Shown piece after piece: positions 42,955 through 49,585 of a stretch of 64,000 nucleotides of DNA (within the stretch, counting starts at the first letter, position 1; the number at the start of each line of letters is the position of its first letter). The stretch is from Alkalibacillus aidingensis (GTDB lineage Bacteria; Bacillota; Bacilli; Bacillales; Alkalibacillaceae): NCBI RefSeq assembly GCF_014595945.1, contig NZ_JABXWU010000002.1, forward strand, positions 310,001 through 374,000. The letters are read 5' to 3'. Under the pieces are notes generated by a model. It was given only the letters and a program-made list of their open reading frames with translations, searched no databases and had not been told where the DNA came from. Made by a program: the position numbers and the translations under genes.

Positions 42955-44514
42955 TTGGGTAACTATCGGATCGGAATTGATGTTGGCGGTACACACACAG
43001 ATGCCGTCGTGTTAGATCAACACTTTAATGTCATCTCAGAAACAAAAGAACCAACCACTGAAGACGTTAGCTCTGGAATCTATAACGCGGTTAAGACAAT
43101 CATAGCTTCTTCAGATGTTCCAAAAGAAGATATTCGTTATGCCATGCTTGGTACGACTCACTGTACCAATGCCATCGTCGAACGTAAACGACTGAATAAC
43201 GTAGCGGTCATTCGAATTGGAGCACCGGCTACTTTAGGTATTAAACCGCTAGTCGGCGTCCCCGATGATTTAAGAGACATCTTAGGTCAGCATGTACATA
43301 TTGTTCATGGCGGCCACGAATTCGATGGACGGCAGATTGCGGATTTGGATACCGAAAAATTATATGAGATCGCTCATGAATTAAAAGGGAATGTTGATTC
43401 TGTAGCGATTACCTCTGTGTTTTCACCGGTTTCACCAGAACATGAACAAGTTGCTCAACGAATCCTACAGGAAGTTTTAGGAGATGAAGTCGCCCTTTCC
43501 TTATCAAGTGAAATCGGCAGTGTTGGACTACTTGAACGTGAAAATGCCACGATTTTAAATGCAGCTGTGGTCAATGTAGCACGCAGCACGGCTAACGGGT
43601 TTATTAACGCATTAAAAGAAGAAGGCGTCGATGCGAAAGTCTTCTTTGGACAGAATGATGGTACCTTAATGTCGGTTGAATACACGGTCAAATATCCGAT
43701 CTTAACCATCGCTTGTGGACCGACGAACAGTATTCGTGGTGCTTCTTATTTAACCAACCAGTCTGATGCGCTAGTGGTCGATGTAGGTGGTACGACTACG
43801 GATATTGGTGTGTTAGTTAGCTCATTCCCACGTCAGTCGTCATTAGCCGTTGAAATTGGCGGGGTTAGAACCAATTTTAGAATGCCTGATATTACATCCA
43901 TCGGTATTGGTGGTGGTACCATTGTACGCCAATCTGAAGATGGAACCGTCACTCTAGGACCAGACAGTGTGGGTTATCGTCTTCAAGAAGAAGCCTACGT
44001 CTTTGGTGGAAACACACTAACGACGACAGATGTTATCGTTGCTAAGGGGCTGGCTTCAGTCGGCGATCCTAATCTCGTTGCTGACTTAGACCCAGACTTA
44101 ATCAACCAAGCCTACCAAACGTTAGTACAGCAGGTCGAAGAAGCGATCGACCGAATGAAAACGAGTGCCGATCCGATACCTGTTATATTAGTTGGTGGAG
44201 GAAGCATTTTACTTCCAGATCAATTAGAAGGTGCCTCAGTTGTCCACCGTCCGAACCATTTTGGTGTAGCAAACGCCATCGGATCTGCCATTGCGCAGGT
44301 TAGTGGACAAATTGAACGCGTCTTTACATTAGATGAATTAGGAAGAGAAGAAACACTAGAACTTGCGAAGAAAATGGCCAAAGATGAAGCCATTCAAGCA
44401 GGCGCCTCACCAGAAGACCTTGAAATTGTGGACTTTGAAGACGTTCCACTCGCCTATTTACCCGGAAACGCGACAAAAATTCGAGCAAAAGCAGCTGGGA
44501 CGTTAGCGGAGTAA
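42955..44514 (+). CDS. hydantoinase/oxoprolinase-family protein (HyuA-like)
   Basis: A 519-residue ASKHA-fold enzyme. The phosphate-1 loop is GIDVGGTHTDAVVL (residues 6-19), TTHCTNAIVERK follows, and VVDVGGTTTDIGVL near residue 277 is the second nucleotide loop; GIGGGTIVR and VGGGSILLP complete the fold. It starts with TTG directly after the upstream stop codon, using an AGGAGGGG site inside the DUF917 gene. ATP-dependent ring opening of a hydantoin or 5-oxoproline-like ring is the family reaction. It is shorter than the fused HyuA-type proteins of about 690 residues. An intrinsic terminator follows. Confidence 0.9.
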   Translation: MGNYRIGIDVGGTHTDAVVLDQHFNVISETKEPTTEDVSSGIYNAVKTIIASSDVPKEDIRYAMLGTTHCTNAIVERKRLNNVAVIRIGAPATLGIKPLVGVPDDLRDILGQHVHIVHGGHEFDGRQIADLDTEKLYEIAHELKGNVDSVAITSVFSPVSPEHEQVAQRILQEVLGDEVALSLSSEIGSVGLLERENATILNAAVVNVARSTANGFINALKEEGVDAKVFFGQNDGTLMSVEYTVKYPILTIACGPTNSIRGASYLTNQSDALVVDVGGTTTDIGVLVSSFPRQSSLAVEIGGVRTNFRMPDITSIGIGGGTIVRQSEDGTVTLGPDSVGYRLQEEAYVFGGNTLTTTDVIVAKGLASVGDPNLVADLDPDLINQAYQTLVQQVEEAIDRMKTSADPIPVILVGGGSILLPDQLEGASVVHRPNHFGVANAIGSAIAQVSGQIERVFTLDELGREETLELAKKMAKDEAIQAGASPEDLEIVDFEDVPLAYLPGNATKIRAKAAGTLAE

Positions 44515-44569: not shown

Positions 44570-44637
44570 TAAGAGGATAGGTAATAAGGTGAAAACCTTG
44601 AACACACTGTTAGGTGGGGTTGGCAAGGTGAGTTTTA

Positions 44638-44806
44638 TTATTTGTGTGACTTTTTCACTAACCTCCATAAATTAAGTGAGAAATCTACATTTTTAATTTG
44701 ACTCATACACCAATCACATACGTATTCGGTAGGACCACCCCTGCTGTTCACCTTCATCTACTGTATCGTAGAGCTGTATATCTCTGTTGCGAACGCTTTT
44801 ATTTGA
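44638..44806 (-). pseudogene. possible decayed gene fragment
   Basis: On the minus strand a frame without a start codon encodes RDIQLYDTVDEGEQQGWSYR and stops at 44714. A one-base shift there continues into CDWCMSQIKNVDFSLNLW to 44638. The Cys-x-x-Cys and Trp-rich composition looks protein-like, but I cannot name a parent. This may be coincidence. Confidence 0.25.
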
Positions 44807-44971: not shown

Positions 44972-45898
44972 TTAATTCTCTTCAACTCGCGCTTCAATCT
45001 CATCACTAGCATACAAAGATATTTCTAAAGTTCCTAGCTTCTTGTCATAGTAATCTATCTCTGTTCGTTTAATAAAATCCAATTCATTAAAACCATCTAT
45101 CACAAGCTCAATGGAAGTGGTATCGTACAAGTTAGTAATAATACTTTTTATTGCATTGGTGAATCTCATTCTTAGTGGGTGCTCTTCCTCTAGTTTCATT
45201 ACATTTAAGGGTATATTTACATTTAGTTCTTTAACTGGATATGAATTTAGTAAAGTACTGAAGATTTCATTCATCTCTGTTTCTGTAGCTTGAAGTATAT
45301 TGCATGGGATGACCCTTATTTTGTATTTATTAATAAGATCAGTTACTATCTCTTTTACATGGTCTGCGTCTGGATCAAGAGTGTTAAGCAACACTACAAA
45401 TGGCTTTTCTGACTTTTTCATGATACTAATGGTTTCATGCTCTGCATCAATGAATGCAAATCTCGGAAGGGTATCGATAGAACCATCTGTTGTTACTACA
45501 AAACCATACTCAGATTTCTCAGTTATCGCTCTCTCTACTTGCATCGGTATCAGTTGTTCTTTGGGAACAGGGGCTCTATTATCATACAGTTTAATCTTTT
45601 CTCCCCGAAGTCCAGATGTCCCATGAACCTTACTACCGACACATTGTAATATTTTTGGATTTAATATTAAGTCTTCACTAACTCTAATAGTATCCAGACT
45701 ACTCATGAGAATTTCTTTCGTGCATACCTCCCTCCCGGATTTACTTTCCGCTAGTACATCATTTTCTTCCATACTGGACAAGTAATATTCCCACTTTTTA
45801 GTAAACAACGATTTTCCTGTCCTCACGGGTCCTACCACACAAAAAGTAACTTCACCGTCATTTAGGGCTGCACATTCTAATAATAATTCGTTTTTCAA
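44972..45898 (-). CDS. truncated SpoIVA-like NTPase paralogue
   Basis: A 308-residue protein. Compared from memory with SpoIVA, the coat-basement ATPase of about 492 residues, it shares VVGPVRTGKSLF (Walker A, residues 21-32), YGFVVTTDGSID, KPFVVLLNTLDP, LNVNIPLNVMKLEEEHPLR and LGTLEISLYASDEI. It stops where SpoIVA would continue into its C-terminal half, which anchors and polymerises the protein. The segment corresponding to SpoIVA VDCVGY reads LQCVGS, so the Walker-B-type Asp is replaced by Gln. Start TTG with GGAGGAGG. It is not next to other sporulation genes. The homology is clear to me; the function is open. Confidence 0.75.
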   Translation of the reverse strand: MKNELLLECAALNDGEVTFCVVGPVRTGKSLFTKKWEYYLSSMEENDVLAESKSGREVCTKEILMSSLDTIRVSEDLILNPKILQCVGSKVHGTSGLRGEKIKLYDNRAPVPKEQLIPMQVERAITEKSEYGFVVTTDGSIDTLPRFAFIDAEHETISIMKKSEKPFVVLLNTLDPDADHVKEIVTDLINKYKIRVIPCNILQATETEMNEIFSTLLNSYPVKELNVNIPLNVMKLEEEHPLRMRFTNAIKSIITNLYDTTSIELVIDGFNELDFIKRTEIDYYDKKLGTLEISLYASDEIEARVEEN

Positions 45899-46076
45899 CT
45901 TTCTTCCTCCTCCGAATAAATCATCACTACTTTAGACCTAACTATTAACATTACTAATATACATATTTATGGAATTAGTTGTATTTTATAACTGAGATTC
46001 AAACTTCACCTATACCTTTGTCCTATTTTATTCTCATATTGCATATATTGATTTTGTATAAAAAAGGAGGCCTTAC

Positions 46077-46541
46077 ATGTTAGATGTGGGACAAAAAATA
46101 TTTAGTAATCATGTCGTTCAGTTAATAGTTATTTTTGCTTGTTTCATTTTGGCTTTTATTGCACAGAATCTTTCAATTAATTTATCTCATATTCCATTAA
46201 CTCAATTTATCTCATTAAGTATTGATAACATATTTGCTGAAGAAGAATCATTTAATATTTGGTTAAATGTTATATTACCAGCAATAATGTATTTTGGAGC
46301 TTGTTTATTATTTATGTGGATGGGGATTAGCAATTTTTTATCTTTCAAACAAGAAGATACTACTCCAAGTAAAGTACTTCGCTTTTTGTTAGCAGTTTCT
46401 CAAGTTTTATTATTCGGATGGTTTTTATTTGTTGGAGGTAAATTATTGATCTATTATGCGGCTCTTTCTCTTGTGTTTTTATTTTTAGTTGCATTCTTTA
46501 TCTGGGTGTTTTCATCGGATAGTAGGAGTCAGAGCTATTAA
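46077..46541 (+). CDS. hypothetical four-TM membrane protein
   Basis: A 154-residue protein with hydrophobic segments at about 13-32 (VVQLIVIFACFILAFIAQNL), 62-84, 102-122 and 125-146. A short acidic loop (DNIFAEEESF) precedes TM2, and a Ser-rich tail closes it. Ribosome binding site AAGGAGG, 6 nt before ATG. It is divergent from the SpoIVA-like gene. No family recognised. Confidence 0.65.
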   Translation: MLDVGQKIFSNHVVQLIVIFACFILAFIAQNLSINLSHIPLTQFISLSIDNIFAEEESFNIWLNVILPAIMYFGACLLFMWMGISNFLSFKQEDTTPSKVLRFLLAVSQVLLFGWFLFVGGKLLIYYAALSLVFLFLVAFFIWVFSSDSRSQSY

Positions 46542-46645: not shown

Positions 46646-46667
46646 TTACATTACATAGGAGGATTTG

Positions 46668-46803
46668 ATGATAGATTTACATAGTCATATTTCACCTGGG
46701 GCTGATGATGGAGCGAATACGCTTGATGACAGTCTAGAGATGGCTCTGGTTGCGGTTGCCGATGGAAGTGCAACGAAAGAAGAAGCTATTAGGAATTTTT
46801 TAG
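46668..46803 (+). pseudogene. N-terminal fragment of a PHP-type tyrosine-protein phosphatase (YwqE/CpsB-like)
   Basis: With a good AGGAGG site, the frame starts MIDLHSHISPGADDGANTL followed by DDSLEMALVAVADG, the beginning of YwqE/CpsB-type manganese phosphatases, including the H-x-H metal motif. After about 33 residues the match ends (a T-I-V-A-T-P-H-H-like continuation is expected) and the frame runs into a terminator at 46808-46840. A full enzyme is about 250 residues, so this is a truncated remnant of an exopolysaccharide regulatory gene. Confidence 0.7.
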
Positions 46804-46807
46804 GTAG

Positions 46808-46840
46808 AACACGTCGGAAAGTGGTCCGACGTGTTTTTTT
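46808..46840. terminator. bidirectional terminator
   Basis: AACACGTCGGA and TCCGACGTGTT form an 11-bp perfect stem around a 6-nt loop, followed by TTTTT on the plus strand. The minus-strand lipoprotein gene ends at its edge. Confidence 0.85.
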
Positions 46841-47348
46841 AATCATACCCACCTGTTGGCTCTGGCAGTTCTTGATAGGCTTGTTTATTTTTGACGAGGT
46901 GGAAGATGTCGTCGCGTAGTTCTTTTAATTGTTGGGCGTCTTTAGTGGGATCGCAGTATTCTCCTGACCAGGCGTGTGTTTGGATTTCACCGTCCATTTC
47001 GATTTTCCATTCGTCTTCGGTGTGTGGTGTTTGCATGCAGTCGGGATTTTTCGGTTCGAGTTGTTTATTTTCCATGATGTTAATGTCTTTCATTTTTTCG
47101 TAGATGTCGGTGATTTCTTCGTCGGTGAAGGTGATGTCGGTTGTTTCGGTGCCGTCTTCGATTAGGTCCTTGGTGACGGTATTTTCGAATGTGTTGATTT
47201 CGTTTTTACTTTGGATGCCGAATTTGACGTGGAAGTTGAAGTCATCAGGTACATCTTCAGGCATGTCTGGGCCTGCTCCTGTGGTTCCCTCCCCTATTCC
47301 ACAACCGAATAAGAGTAGTAGTGTGAGTAATGCGGTTAGCTTTTTGAT
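46839..47348 (-). CDS. putative lipoprotein with a non-AUG (ATC) start
   Basis: The frame from ATG 47264 gives 141 residues and no signal peptide. Extended upstream in frame, it encodes KKLTALLTLLLLFGCG, a complete lipoprotein signal with lipobox LFGC. The only codon at the right distance from a perfect AGGAGG site (7-nt spacing) is ATC at 47348-47346. Either AUC is used as a rare start or an ATG was mutated and the gene is silenced. The mature part is acidic, with two Cys (NPDCMQTP and GEYCDPTK) that could form a disulfide. The function is unknown. Confidence 0.6.
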   Translation of the reverse strand: MKKLTALLTLLLLFGCGIGEGTTGAGPDMPEDVPDDFNFHVKFGIQSKNEINTFENTVTKDLIEDGTETTDITFTDEEITDIYEKMKDINIMENKQLEPKNPDCMQTPHTEDEWKIEMDGEIQTHAWSGEYCDPTKDAQQLKELRDDIFHLVKNKQAYQELPEPTGGYD

Positions 47349-48509: not shown

Positions 48510-49412
48510 ATGAATTATAATCAGCTGAAGTCGTTTATTTATGTTGTGGAGTTGGAGAGTTTTTCTAAGGCGAGTGAGGCGTTGTATTTGACGCAGCCGA
48601 CTGTGACGACTCATGTAAAAAGTTTGGAGAAGCATTTGAACACGTTATTATTTGATCGCCATCATAAGGGAATCGCACTCACCCAGTCGGGGCAGATACT
48701 TTATCAGCACGCGCTTGAGATTGTGCGATTAAATGATCAAGCGCAGAGTGATATTGAAAAACTTGGCAACCAAGTTTACGGCGATTTGAAAATGGCTTGT
48801 AGTTTAACGATCGGTGAGTTTATTTTGCCGAATATTTTAAAGGAAGTTAATGAGCATTATCCGTTGATCCATGTTAGTGCTGAGATTTTGAACACGAATA
48901 CAATTATTGATCGGATTGCGAATCATCAAATTGATATCGGCTTAATCGAGACGCATGTTGAGCATGATTTTTTACAGATTGAGCCGTTTACTGATGATGA
49001 GTTGGTGTTGATTTCGAGTCAGGGTTATTTTGATAATGCTGGTGCGATTTCGTTGGAGGATCTTAAGAATGTTCCTTTAATTCTCCGAGAGCCAGGGTCG
49101 GGCACACGGGCCGAGGTGGAATCATTGTTTAAGCGGTTTGGATTGGGTGTTGGCCAGTTTGATGTGACGCTAGAGCTTGGCAGCACCGAAGCGATTAAGA
49201 ACGCGGTGATTAACGAGTTGGGTGTGTCGATTATTTCCAAGCGTTGTGTGAAAAAGGAGCTCGAGCTTGGTCTGTTGGATGTTCACCCTTTTGCGGAGGG
49301 CGAGTTGAAGCGTCAGTTTTATATTGCCTCGCACCGGACGAAGGTGATGCGTCCGATTGAAGAGCTGTTTTGTCATATGGTGAAGCAGCATGATTATGAT
49401 CGGTTGGTTTGA
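48510..49412 (+). CDS. LysR-family transcriptional regulator (YeiE/CysL-like)
   Basis: A 300-residue regulator from ATG 48510 (GTGAGG 9 nt upstream). The N-terminal winged HTH is MNYNQLKSFIYVVELESFSK followed by ASEALYLTQPTVTTHVKSLE. The effector domain follows, with IGLIETHVEHDFLQIEPF and ILREPGSGTRAEVESLF, a stretch typical of the CysL/YeiE group. It is convergent with a YeiH-type exporter gene, and LysR proteins of this type are often paired with that exporter. I infer a sulfite/sulfur-related signal; this remains an inference. Confidence 0.88.
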   Translation: MNYNQLKSFIYVVELESFSKASEALYLTQPTVTTHVKSLEKHLNTLLFDRHHKGIALTQSGQILYQHALEIVRLNDQAQSDIEKLGNQVYGDLKMACSLTIGEFILPNILKEVNEHYPLIHVSAEILNTNTIIDRIANHQIDIGLIETHVEHDFLQIEPFTDDELVLISSQGYFDNAGAISLEDLKNVPLILREPGSGTRAEVESLFKRFGLGVGQFDVTLELGSTEAIKNAVINELGVSIISKRCVKKELELGLLDVHPFAEGELKRQFYIASHRTKVMRPIEELFCHMVKQHDYDRLV

Positions 49413-49422
49413 AGGGTGTTTT

Positions 49423-49585
49423 TACGGATTGGAGGGCCTTTCTCACGGATTGAGCACCCCTTTTCACGGATTAGAGGGCCTTTCTCACGGATTGAGCACC
49501 CCCTTTCACGGATTGGAGGGCTATTCTCACGGATTGAGCACCCCCTTTCACGGATTGAGCATCTGATTTCACGGATTGAGCGTAC
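49423..49585 (+). repeat. 21-bp tandem repeat array, family E (8 units)
   Basis: CACGGATTGAGCACC or CACGGATTGGAGGGC units start at 49423, 49444, 49465, 49486, 49507, 49528, 49549 and 49570, always 21 bp apart. Two variants alternate. The array fills the gap between the convergent LysR and exporter genes. Confidence 0.92.

Follow-up and report, generated by a model that had tools for sequence, protein, structure and literature searches.

The gene of interest lies in a 64,000-nt stretch of the Alkalibacillus aidingensis genome (G000; we call this stretch the window) at 44972..45898 on the minus strand and encodes a truncated SpoIVA paralogue of 308 aa, made up of a SpoIVA_ATPase domain and the start of a SpoIVA middle domain. 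Its reading frame is intact: it starts with TTG at 45898, downstream of a ribosome-binding site read from the sequence (GGAGGAGG, 45906..45913, minus strand), and stops with TAA, and, given the local base composition, a run of 319 codons would stay open by chance with a probability of about 4e-12. The original prediction had the coordinates, strand and length of this gene right. Head-to-head with the short spoIVA is a plus-strand gene (46077..46541) for a 154-aa membrane protein with 4 predicted transmembrane (TM) helices, and the two divergent starts are separated by a 178-bp intergenic region (45899..46076). The pair is flanked on the left by a hydantoinase-type gene (42955..44514, plus strand), the last gene of an operon that is kept in the genus-mate G005, and by a probable remnant of the end of an IS21-like element (44618..44700), which shares 86% identity across 84 aligned columns with DNA immediately upstream of an istA/istB-type pair elsewhere in this genome (contig C7). 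On the right is a remnant of the capsule-locus gene cpsB (CpsB_CapC; 46665..46919, plus strand), with approximately 36 matching residues and, at the DNA level, similarity to the G005 locus at 46646-46744.

The window short SpoIVA matches the Pfam SpoIVA_ATPase profile at E=5.9e-35 (profile positions 9-237 of 237) with a score of 121.2 bits, above the gathering score of 26.6, and SpoIVA_middle at E=6.7e-8 (profile positions 1-79 of 179). Its score against NCBIfam TIGR02836 (163.5 bits) is below the curated equivalog cut-off of 459.9. When we aligned the protein with full-length SpoIVA, we recovered the SpoIVA-type P-loop GPVRTGKS and the TTDG and NVNxP (here NVNIP) motifs that the original prediction had described, as well as KP...N. 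The sensor Thr is kept (T60) and the adjoining Thr is Lys; the Walker-B Asp, which is D97 in B. subtilis and is numbered D98 in the host SpoIVA as aligned here, is replaced by Gln (Q85), as had been predicted. The predicted loss of the C-terminal half also held up: the frame stops at residue 308, the half that ends in a NEGSGGLIxII-like sequence is absent, and we found no C-terminal remnant 3' of the gene in any of the three downstream frames. Across the matching part of 49 full-length SpoIVA rows (among them L045, which duplicates the host's L002), 99 positions reach 90% conservation or more, and the short protein retains 48 of these. Identity to the listed SpoIVA matches is 29-34% when its own is excluded and 28-35% over all listed rows, and a PDB sequence search with the protein at E up to 1 gave no match. 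The protein thus resembles SpoIVA (TIGR02836, PF09547/PF20438) in the ATPase domain, the start of the middle domain, the P-loop, the sensor Thr, TTDG and KP...N, but differs in lacking the Walker-B Asp and the C-terminal half, in falling below the equivalog cut-off and in being paired with a membrane-protein gene. The window gene is a shortened, strongly diverged but intact SpoIVA paralogue.

To view the fold, we compared AlphaFold models built from only four sequences, which had a mean pLDDT of 69 for both the short SpoIVA and a full-length one. By VIA-align, the short SpoIVA model matched aEF1A with a Z of 12.2 (168 residues, 3.7 Å) and Era with a Z of 11.2-11.3, predicting a TRAFAC-class P-loop NTPase fold. 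The best match of the full-length model was Era (Z 15.4), in line with the Era ancestry of SpoIVA described in the excerpted text of PMC7952092. Judged by the order of structural elements, the C-terminus of the short protein falls in the helix that follows the middle-domain beta-hairpin, ahead of the long helix seen in the full-length model. Confidence is low in the switch regions of the short model (pLDDT below 50), so the pocket cannot be judged from it.

We found that all 6 genomes of the genus have SpoIVA, with two matches in G000 only; the short copy is absent from the 5 genus-mates. The host's full-length SpoIVA, which the original prediction had proposed to look for elsewhere in the genome, is a 503-aa frame at G000:C1:525583. 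In wider samples, which overlap one another, 333 of 398 genomes of the phylum match at E 1e-8, and among the matches listed only G000 has two, the other listed matches having frames of at least 492 aa. PF09547 matches 288 of 299 genomes in the order sample, with more than one match just in G000 and G149, and 210 of 299 genomes match in the class sample, with more than one match just in G000, G569, G821 and G835. We rejected G149, G821 and G569 as carriers of an extra copy, because their pieces adjoin and read as one broken or decayed gene in each (G149:C10:321019-321724, G821:C1:3784534-3785240 and G569:C1:393093-393353); these genomes are otherwise near-complete. Within the class sample, each of the six further genomes listed for G835's genus has a single match. 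In the sensitive phylum, order and class screens, a short extra copy is therefore found in G000 and G835 only. Family and order protein screens at 1e-42 and 1e-44 were too strict to exclude diverged copies and are not counted as absence.

Among records labelled 'phage', 5 (unverified faecal contigs) had SpoIVA matches, as had 2 plasmid records. We rejected a phage or plasmid origin, as 5 of these 7 records (3 phage and 2 plasmid; L046-L050) were examined and carry full-length SpoIVA. One of them, L046 (NZ_AP023421.1:175580-188488), from a plasmid-classified 504-kb replicon of Pusillibacter faecalis, has its full-length spoIVA adjoining the spoIIIA operon. When viral contigs were scanned with the short proteins or the membrane protein, no relative was found, and mixed SpoIVA alignments gave two matches there, one full-length SpoIVA and one broken. 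On a viral contig (L070:1-2823), one frame fuses SpoIVA middle-region sequence with an apparent terminase, which may be read as a prophage beside a broken spoIVA or as a chimeric contig. In the text retrieved from open-licence PMC papers, we found no account of a truncated, paralogous, duplicated or horizontally transferred SpoIVA.

G835, the second carrier, belongs to the same class but another family. It has a full-length SpoIVA at C1:3017404 and, separately, a short SpoIVA of 329 aa with an intact frame (C1:1255972-1256961), which matches SpoIVA_ATPase at 7.4e-39, covers middle-domain positions 2-79 and scores 169.5 bits against TIGR02836. The two short proteins have 27% identity over 301 columns (E=1e-28 in a single comparison). 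A relative of similar length, as the original prediction had sought, therefore exists, but it is not of the same length: it extends 18 residues past the end of the window protein in a basic-hydrophobic tail. In the alignment, the G835 protein has the P-loop GPARTGKS, the sensor Thr and a Glu at the Walker-B position, which might still allow Mg binding, while the Gly of the DxxG motif is Lys. Common to both short SpoIVAs, then, are a kept P-loop and sensor Thr and the loss of the Walker-B Asp and of the Thr beside the sensor Thr.

To ask how these two proteins are related, we looked at 75 columns where both have residues rare in SpoIVA; 10 are identical as compared to a mean of 5.0 after shuffling (44 of 2000 shuffles reach 10). 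In a tree with both proteins (from which five near-copies, the duplicate L045 and G830's SpoIVA were left out), the pair forms one side of a branch with support 72/93, a grouping that is suggestive only, because the short SpoIVA branches are very long and sit at the program's limit of 10. Both belong to a starred set whose 18 rows correspond in number to the 16 Bacilli rows and these two. With the window protein alone in the tree, neither a grouping with the SpoIVA of its own family (p-AU 0.63) nor one with all Bacilli (p-AU 0.69) is rejected, and at diagnostic sites (60% level) it has 7 Bacilli states as compared to 5 of others. These comparisons of sequence are suggestive of one common origin of the two short SpoIVAs.

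The membrane gene recurs as well. In G835, the short spoIVA is head-to-head with a gene whose 190-aa product likewise has 4 predicted TM helices; the gap between them is 459 bp, provided that the first start of the membrane gene is the correct one. The two membrane proteins are related by pairwise BLASTP (E=4e-5) and by hhalign (E=7.5e-5, probability 62%, as compared to E 0.25-0.51 for three control proteins). When we searched the 984 ORFs of 70 aa or more from the loci examined, each matched only its own family at E up to 5, with weak reciprocal matches of 0.002 and 0.037. Pfam, PADLOC and PHROGs gave no confident match for either protein, plasmids held no homologue of either, and phages held none of the window membrane protein. 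Relatives of the membrane protein are present in G009 and G018 (two in G018) with no SpoIVA-like neighbour in the stretches read; the partnership is thus not obligatory for the membrane family, which is broader than the pair.

Both pairs are found at variable or rearranged loci. Downstream of the TetR-permease-S-Me-THD-hydantoinase operon, G005 has wzz, a BY-kinase-like gene and cpsB, while the window has the 83-nt IS21-type end-like stretch, the SpoIVA-like/membrane pair and the cpsB stump. Based on this one genus-mate, the pair appears to have replaced wzz and the kinase gene; of the other four genus-mates, two have only short matches and two have none. The GC content of the window pair is 32.5%, as compared to 41% for the window, 35.4% for the host spoIVA locus and 34-36% for two genus-mate loci. 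We discarded the low GC as a sign of foreign origin, since the host's own spoIVA locus is nearly as AT-rich, and short repeats in the island were discarded as chance-like matches. Elsewhere in the window, a repeat of approximately 100-175 bp (49405-49579) has five more sites in the genome (two on C23, one on C22 and two on C12). We saw no sporulation genes near the window pair and only sigK near the G835 pair; a search for sigK similarity within the window (E up to 1e-2) found none.

The G835 pair has a GC content of 31.6%, as compared to 51% for the host spoIVA locus and 38-47% for the neighbourhood, and it is flanked by a copy of sigK codons 1-67 and by intact sigK. Two further copies of codons 1-67 lie upstream of it. 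As the three copies share the same break point and the sequence that follows, we read this region (L090:12695-18618 and L087:5746-16574, within G835:C1:1241694-1264573) as a tandem array of 5.3-6.2 kb segments with differing cargo. Its order is three sigK codon 1-67 copies, intact sigK and a fragment of sigK codons 141-237, and the cargo consists of AMP-ligase, SDR, Fic and aspartyl protease genes, then HARE-HTH and DUF445, then the SpoIVA-like pair, which CAAX-protease-like and ankyrin genes adjoin. No recombinase families were found among the subset of array ORFs given to Pfam. In having a fixed break point in sigK, and in placing the pair between a partial 5' copy and the intact gene, the G835 locus resembles skin and gin elements, the latter described as a non-prophage sigK-intervening element in the excerpt consulted of PMC5595907. 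It differs from them in that sigK is intact at one end, the segments are 5-6 kb tandem units and the searched ORFs hold no recombinase; the window pair differs further, as it is not inside a split sigK.

To look for signs of sporulation control, we scanned upstream regions with a sigma-E consensus. Upstream of the host full-length spoIVA, the best match is 14/15 (0 of 300 shuffles). Upstream of the window short spoIVA it is 11/15, which 82% of shuffles reach; toward the window membrane gene it is 13/15 (p 0.09), and in the G835 pair it is 12/15 for both genes (p 0.22 for the short spoIVA and 0.62 for the membrane gene). As a control, just 3 of 12 spoIVA upstream regions scored gave p of 0.05 or below, and a thirteenth (L079) was missed by the pattern; the scan is insensitive, and the poor match upstream of the short spoIVA is therefore weak evidence. 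In the 178-bp intergenic region, nothing upstream of the SpoIVA-like gene gave a convincing match to sigma-E, A, F, G, H, B or K.

Taken together, these data extend the original prediction by a divergent membrane-protein gene, signs of lateral acquisition and a second genome with the same pair, and the stronger finding is that the gene pair recurs and apparently spreads laterally. The two outcomes named beforehand as refuting the original prediction, a genome lacking full-length SpoIVA but with a frameshift that would restore the missing half, or a protein lacking similarity in profile searches, are both contradicted by the data; the roles that it proposed (regulator or inhibitor of SpoIVA, another spore protein, or a non-sporulation NTPase) are all possible. 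In our leading interpretation, to which we give a probability of about 40%, a SpoIVA derivative that binds nucleotide but is impaired in hydrolysis travels laterally together with a membrane partner, and the two probably act on the SpoIVA layer during sporulation. That the pair moves is suggested by the same head-to-head arrangement in two families, by its patchy occurrence and by the variable or rearranged loci in both genomes; as a distantly related spore former has the same pair at a variable locus, it looks more like a travelling two-gene unit than like a broken gene. As to partnership and role, we infer the following. The short protein would fold as a TRAFAC-type SpoIVA ATPase domain, and the intact P-loop and the sensor Thr would let it bind nucleotide. 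Loss of the Walker-B Asp would leave hydrolysis poor or nil and the protein nucleotide-bound, and loss of the C-terminal domain would prevent it from building the coat basement layer itself. Its membrane neighbour is suggestive of tethering, in which the partner would hold the short SpoIVA at a membrane. Through the shared ATPase domain, the short protein would then meet the host SpoIVA or SpoIVA-binding proteins, most likely during sporulation, and modulate assembly of the layer by capping, doping or competing. Action on the host SpoIVA layer is the likeliest role because the domain came from SpoIVA and both carriers have a full-length SpoIVA, although two examples are no proof.

Known proteins offer analogies for such a derivative. 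In the sections available of PMC7549369, B. subtilis SpoIVA with sensor-Thr or Walker-B mutations binds ATP but does not hydrolyse it, and in C. difficile changes at these sites reduce heat-resistant spores by only about 3-fold and leave SipL binding unchanged or raised, so on this account loss of hydrolysis need not abolish function. Judged from its residues, the short SpoIVA would have the same class of catalytic defect, and by analogy it should be a nucleotide-bound, non-polymerising SpoIVA derivative; in contrast, the mutants are full-length laboratory proteins and the short SpoIVA is a natural truncated paralogue. Septin pseudoGTPases, as portrayed in the part of PMC10731463 consulted, are non-hydrolysing relatives that sit beside active ones in an assembly, the arrangement that we propose for the short SpoIVA. 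Septins, however, are eukaryotic, and co-assembly of the short SpoIVA with SpoIVA is hypothetical.

The main rival is a role outside sporulation, in which the pair would be a membrane-associated NTP-binding module for stress, defence against phages or elements, or immunity that recruited the SpoIVA ATPase domain and travels as variable-region cargo. We consider this somewhat unlikely, though it has several observations in its favour: the patchy distribution, the variable loci (a capsule locus and a sigK array whose other cargo, including Fic and DUF445, is unrelated), the lack of a significant sigma-E match upstream of the short genes (in an insensitive scan), the relatives of the membrane protein elsewhere without SpoIVA and the CAAX-protease-like and ankyrin genes beside the G835 pair. 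In contrast, PADLOC at E up to 1 gave no match for the four proteins of the two pairs, PHROGs gave just two weak matches (E ~0.08, both to the G835 short protein), both hosts have full-length SpoIVA and one pair lies at sigK. A bolder reading, distinct from this rival and in our view unlikely, is that small mobile elements at sporulation or surface loci carry a membrane-anchored, non-hydrolysing pseudo-SpoIVA that would enter the coat basement layer and alter spore assembly to the element's advantage.

That the two short genes are independent, degenerating spoIVA duplicates, alike by coincidence and without current function, we hold to be improbable. The very long branches (at the limit of 10), the indecisive 72/93 support for a common origin and the codon-adaptation value of the window gene (0.675, at the low end of the window genes scored) would fit such decay, but both frames are intact and the codon-position GC pattern of the window gene resembles that of other window genes. 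The intact P-loops, ends only 18 residues apart and the same kind of divergent membrane neighbour are also not expected from chance truncation. Least probable by far is a split or frameshifted spoIVA that recombination would rejoin to a C-terminal half located elsewhere, in the manner of skin-type elements: although the excerpted literature knows of intervening elements that target sporulation genes, this reading is refuted for the assembly, where a full-length spoIVA with a strong sigma-E match is present, no remnant lies downstream of the short gene, and the sole C-terminal half found (E up to 10) belongs to the full-length gene.

If the pair is indeed a travelling unit of a SpoIVA derivative and its membrane partner, this truncated, catalytically altered paralogue, which recurs beside a membrane-protein gene in two distant families, would represent a naturally occurring form of the coat scaffold. 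With it, the contributions of ATP binding, of hydrolysis and of the C-terminal domain could be tested on parts already separated by evolution.
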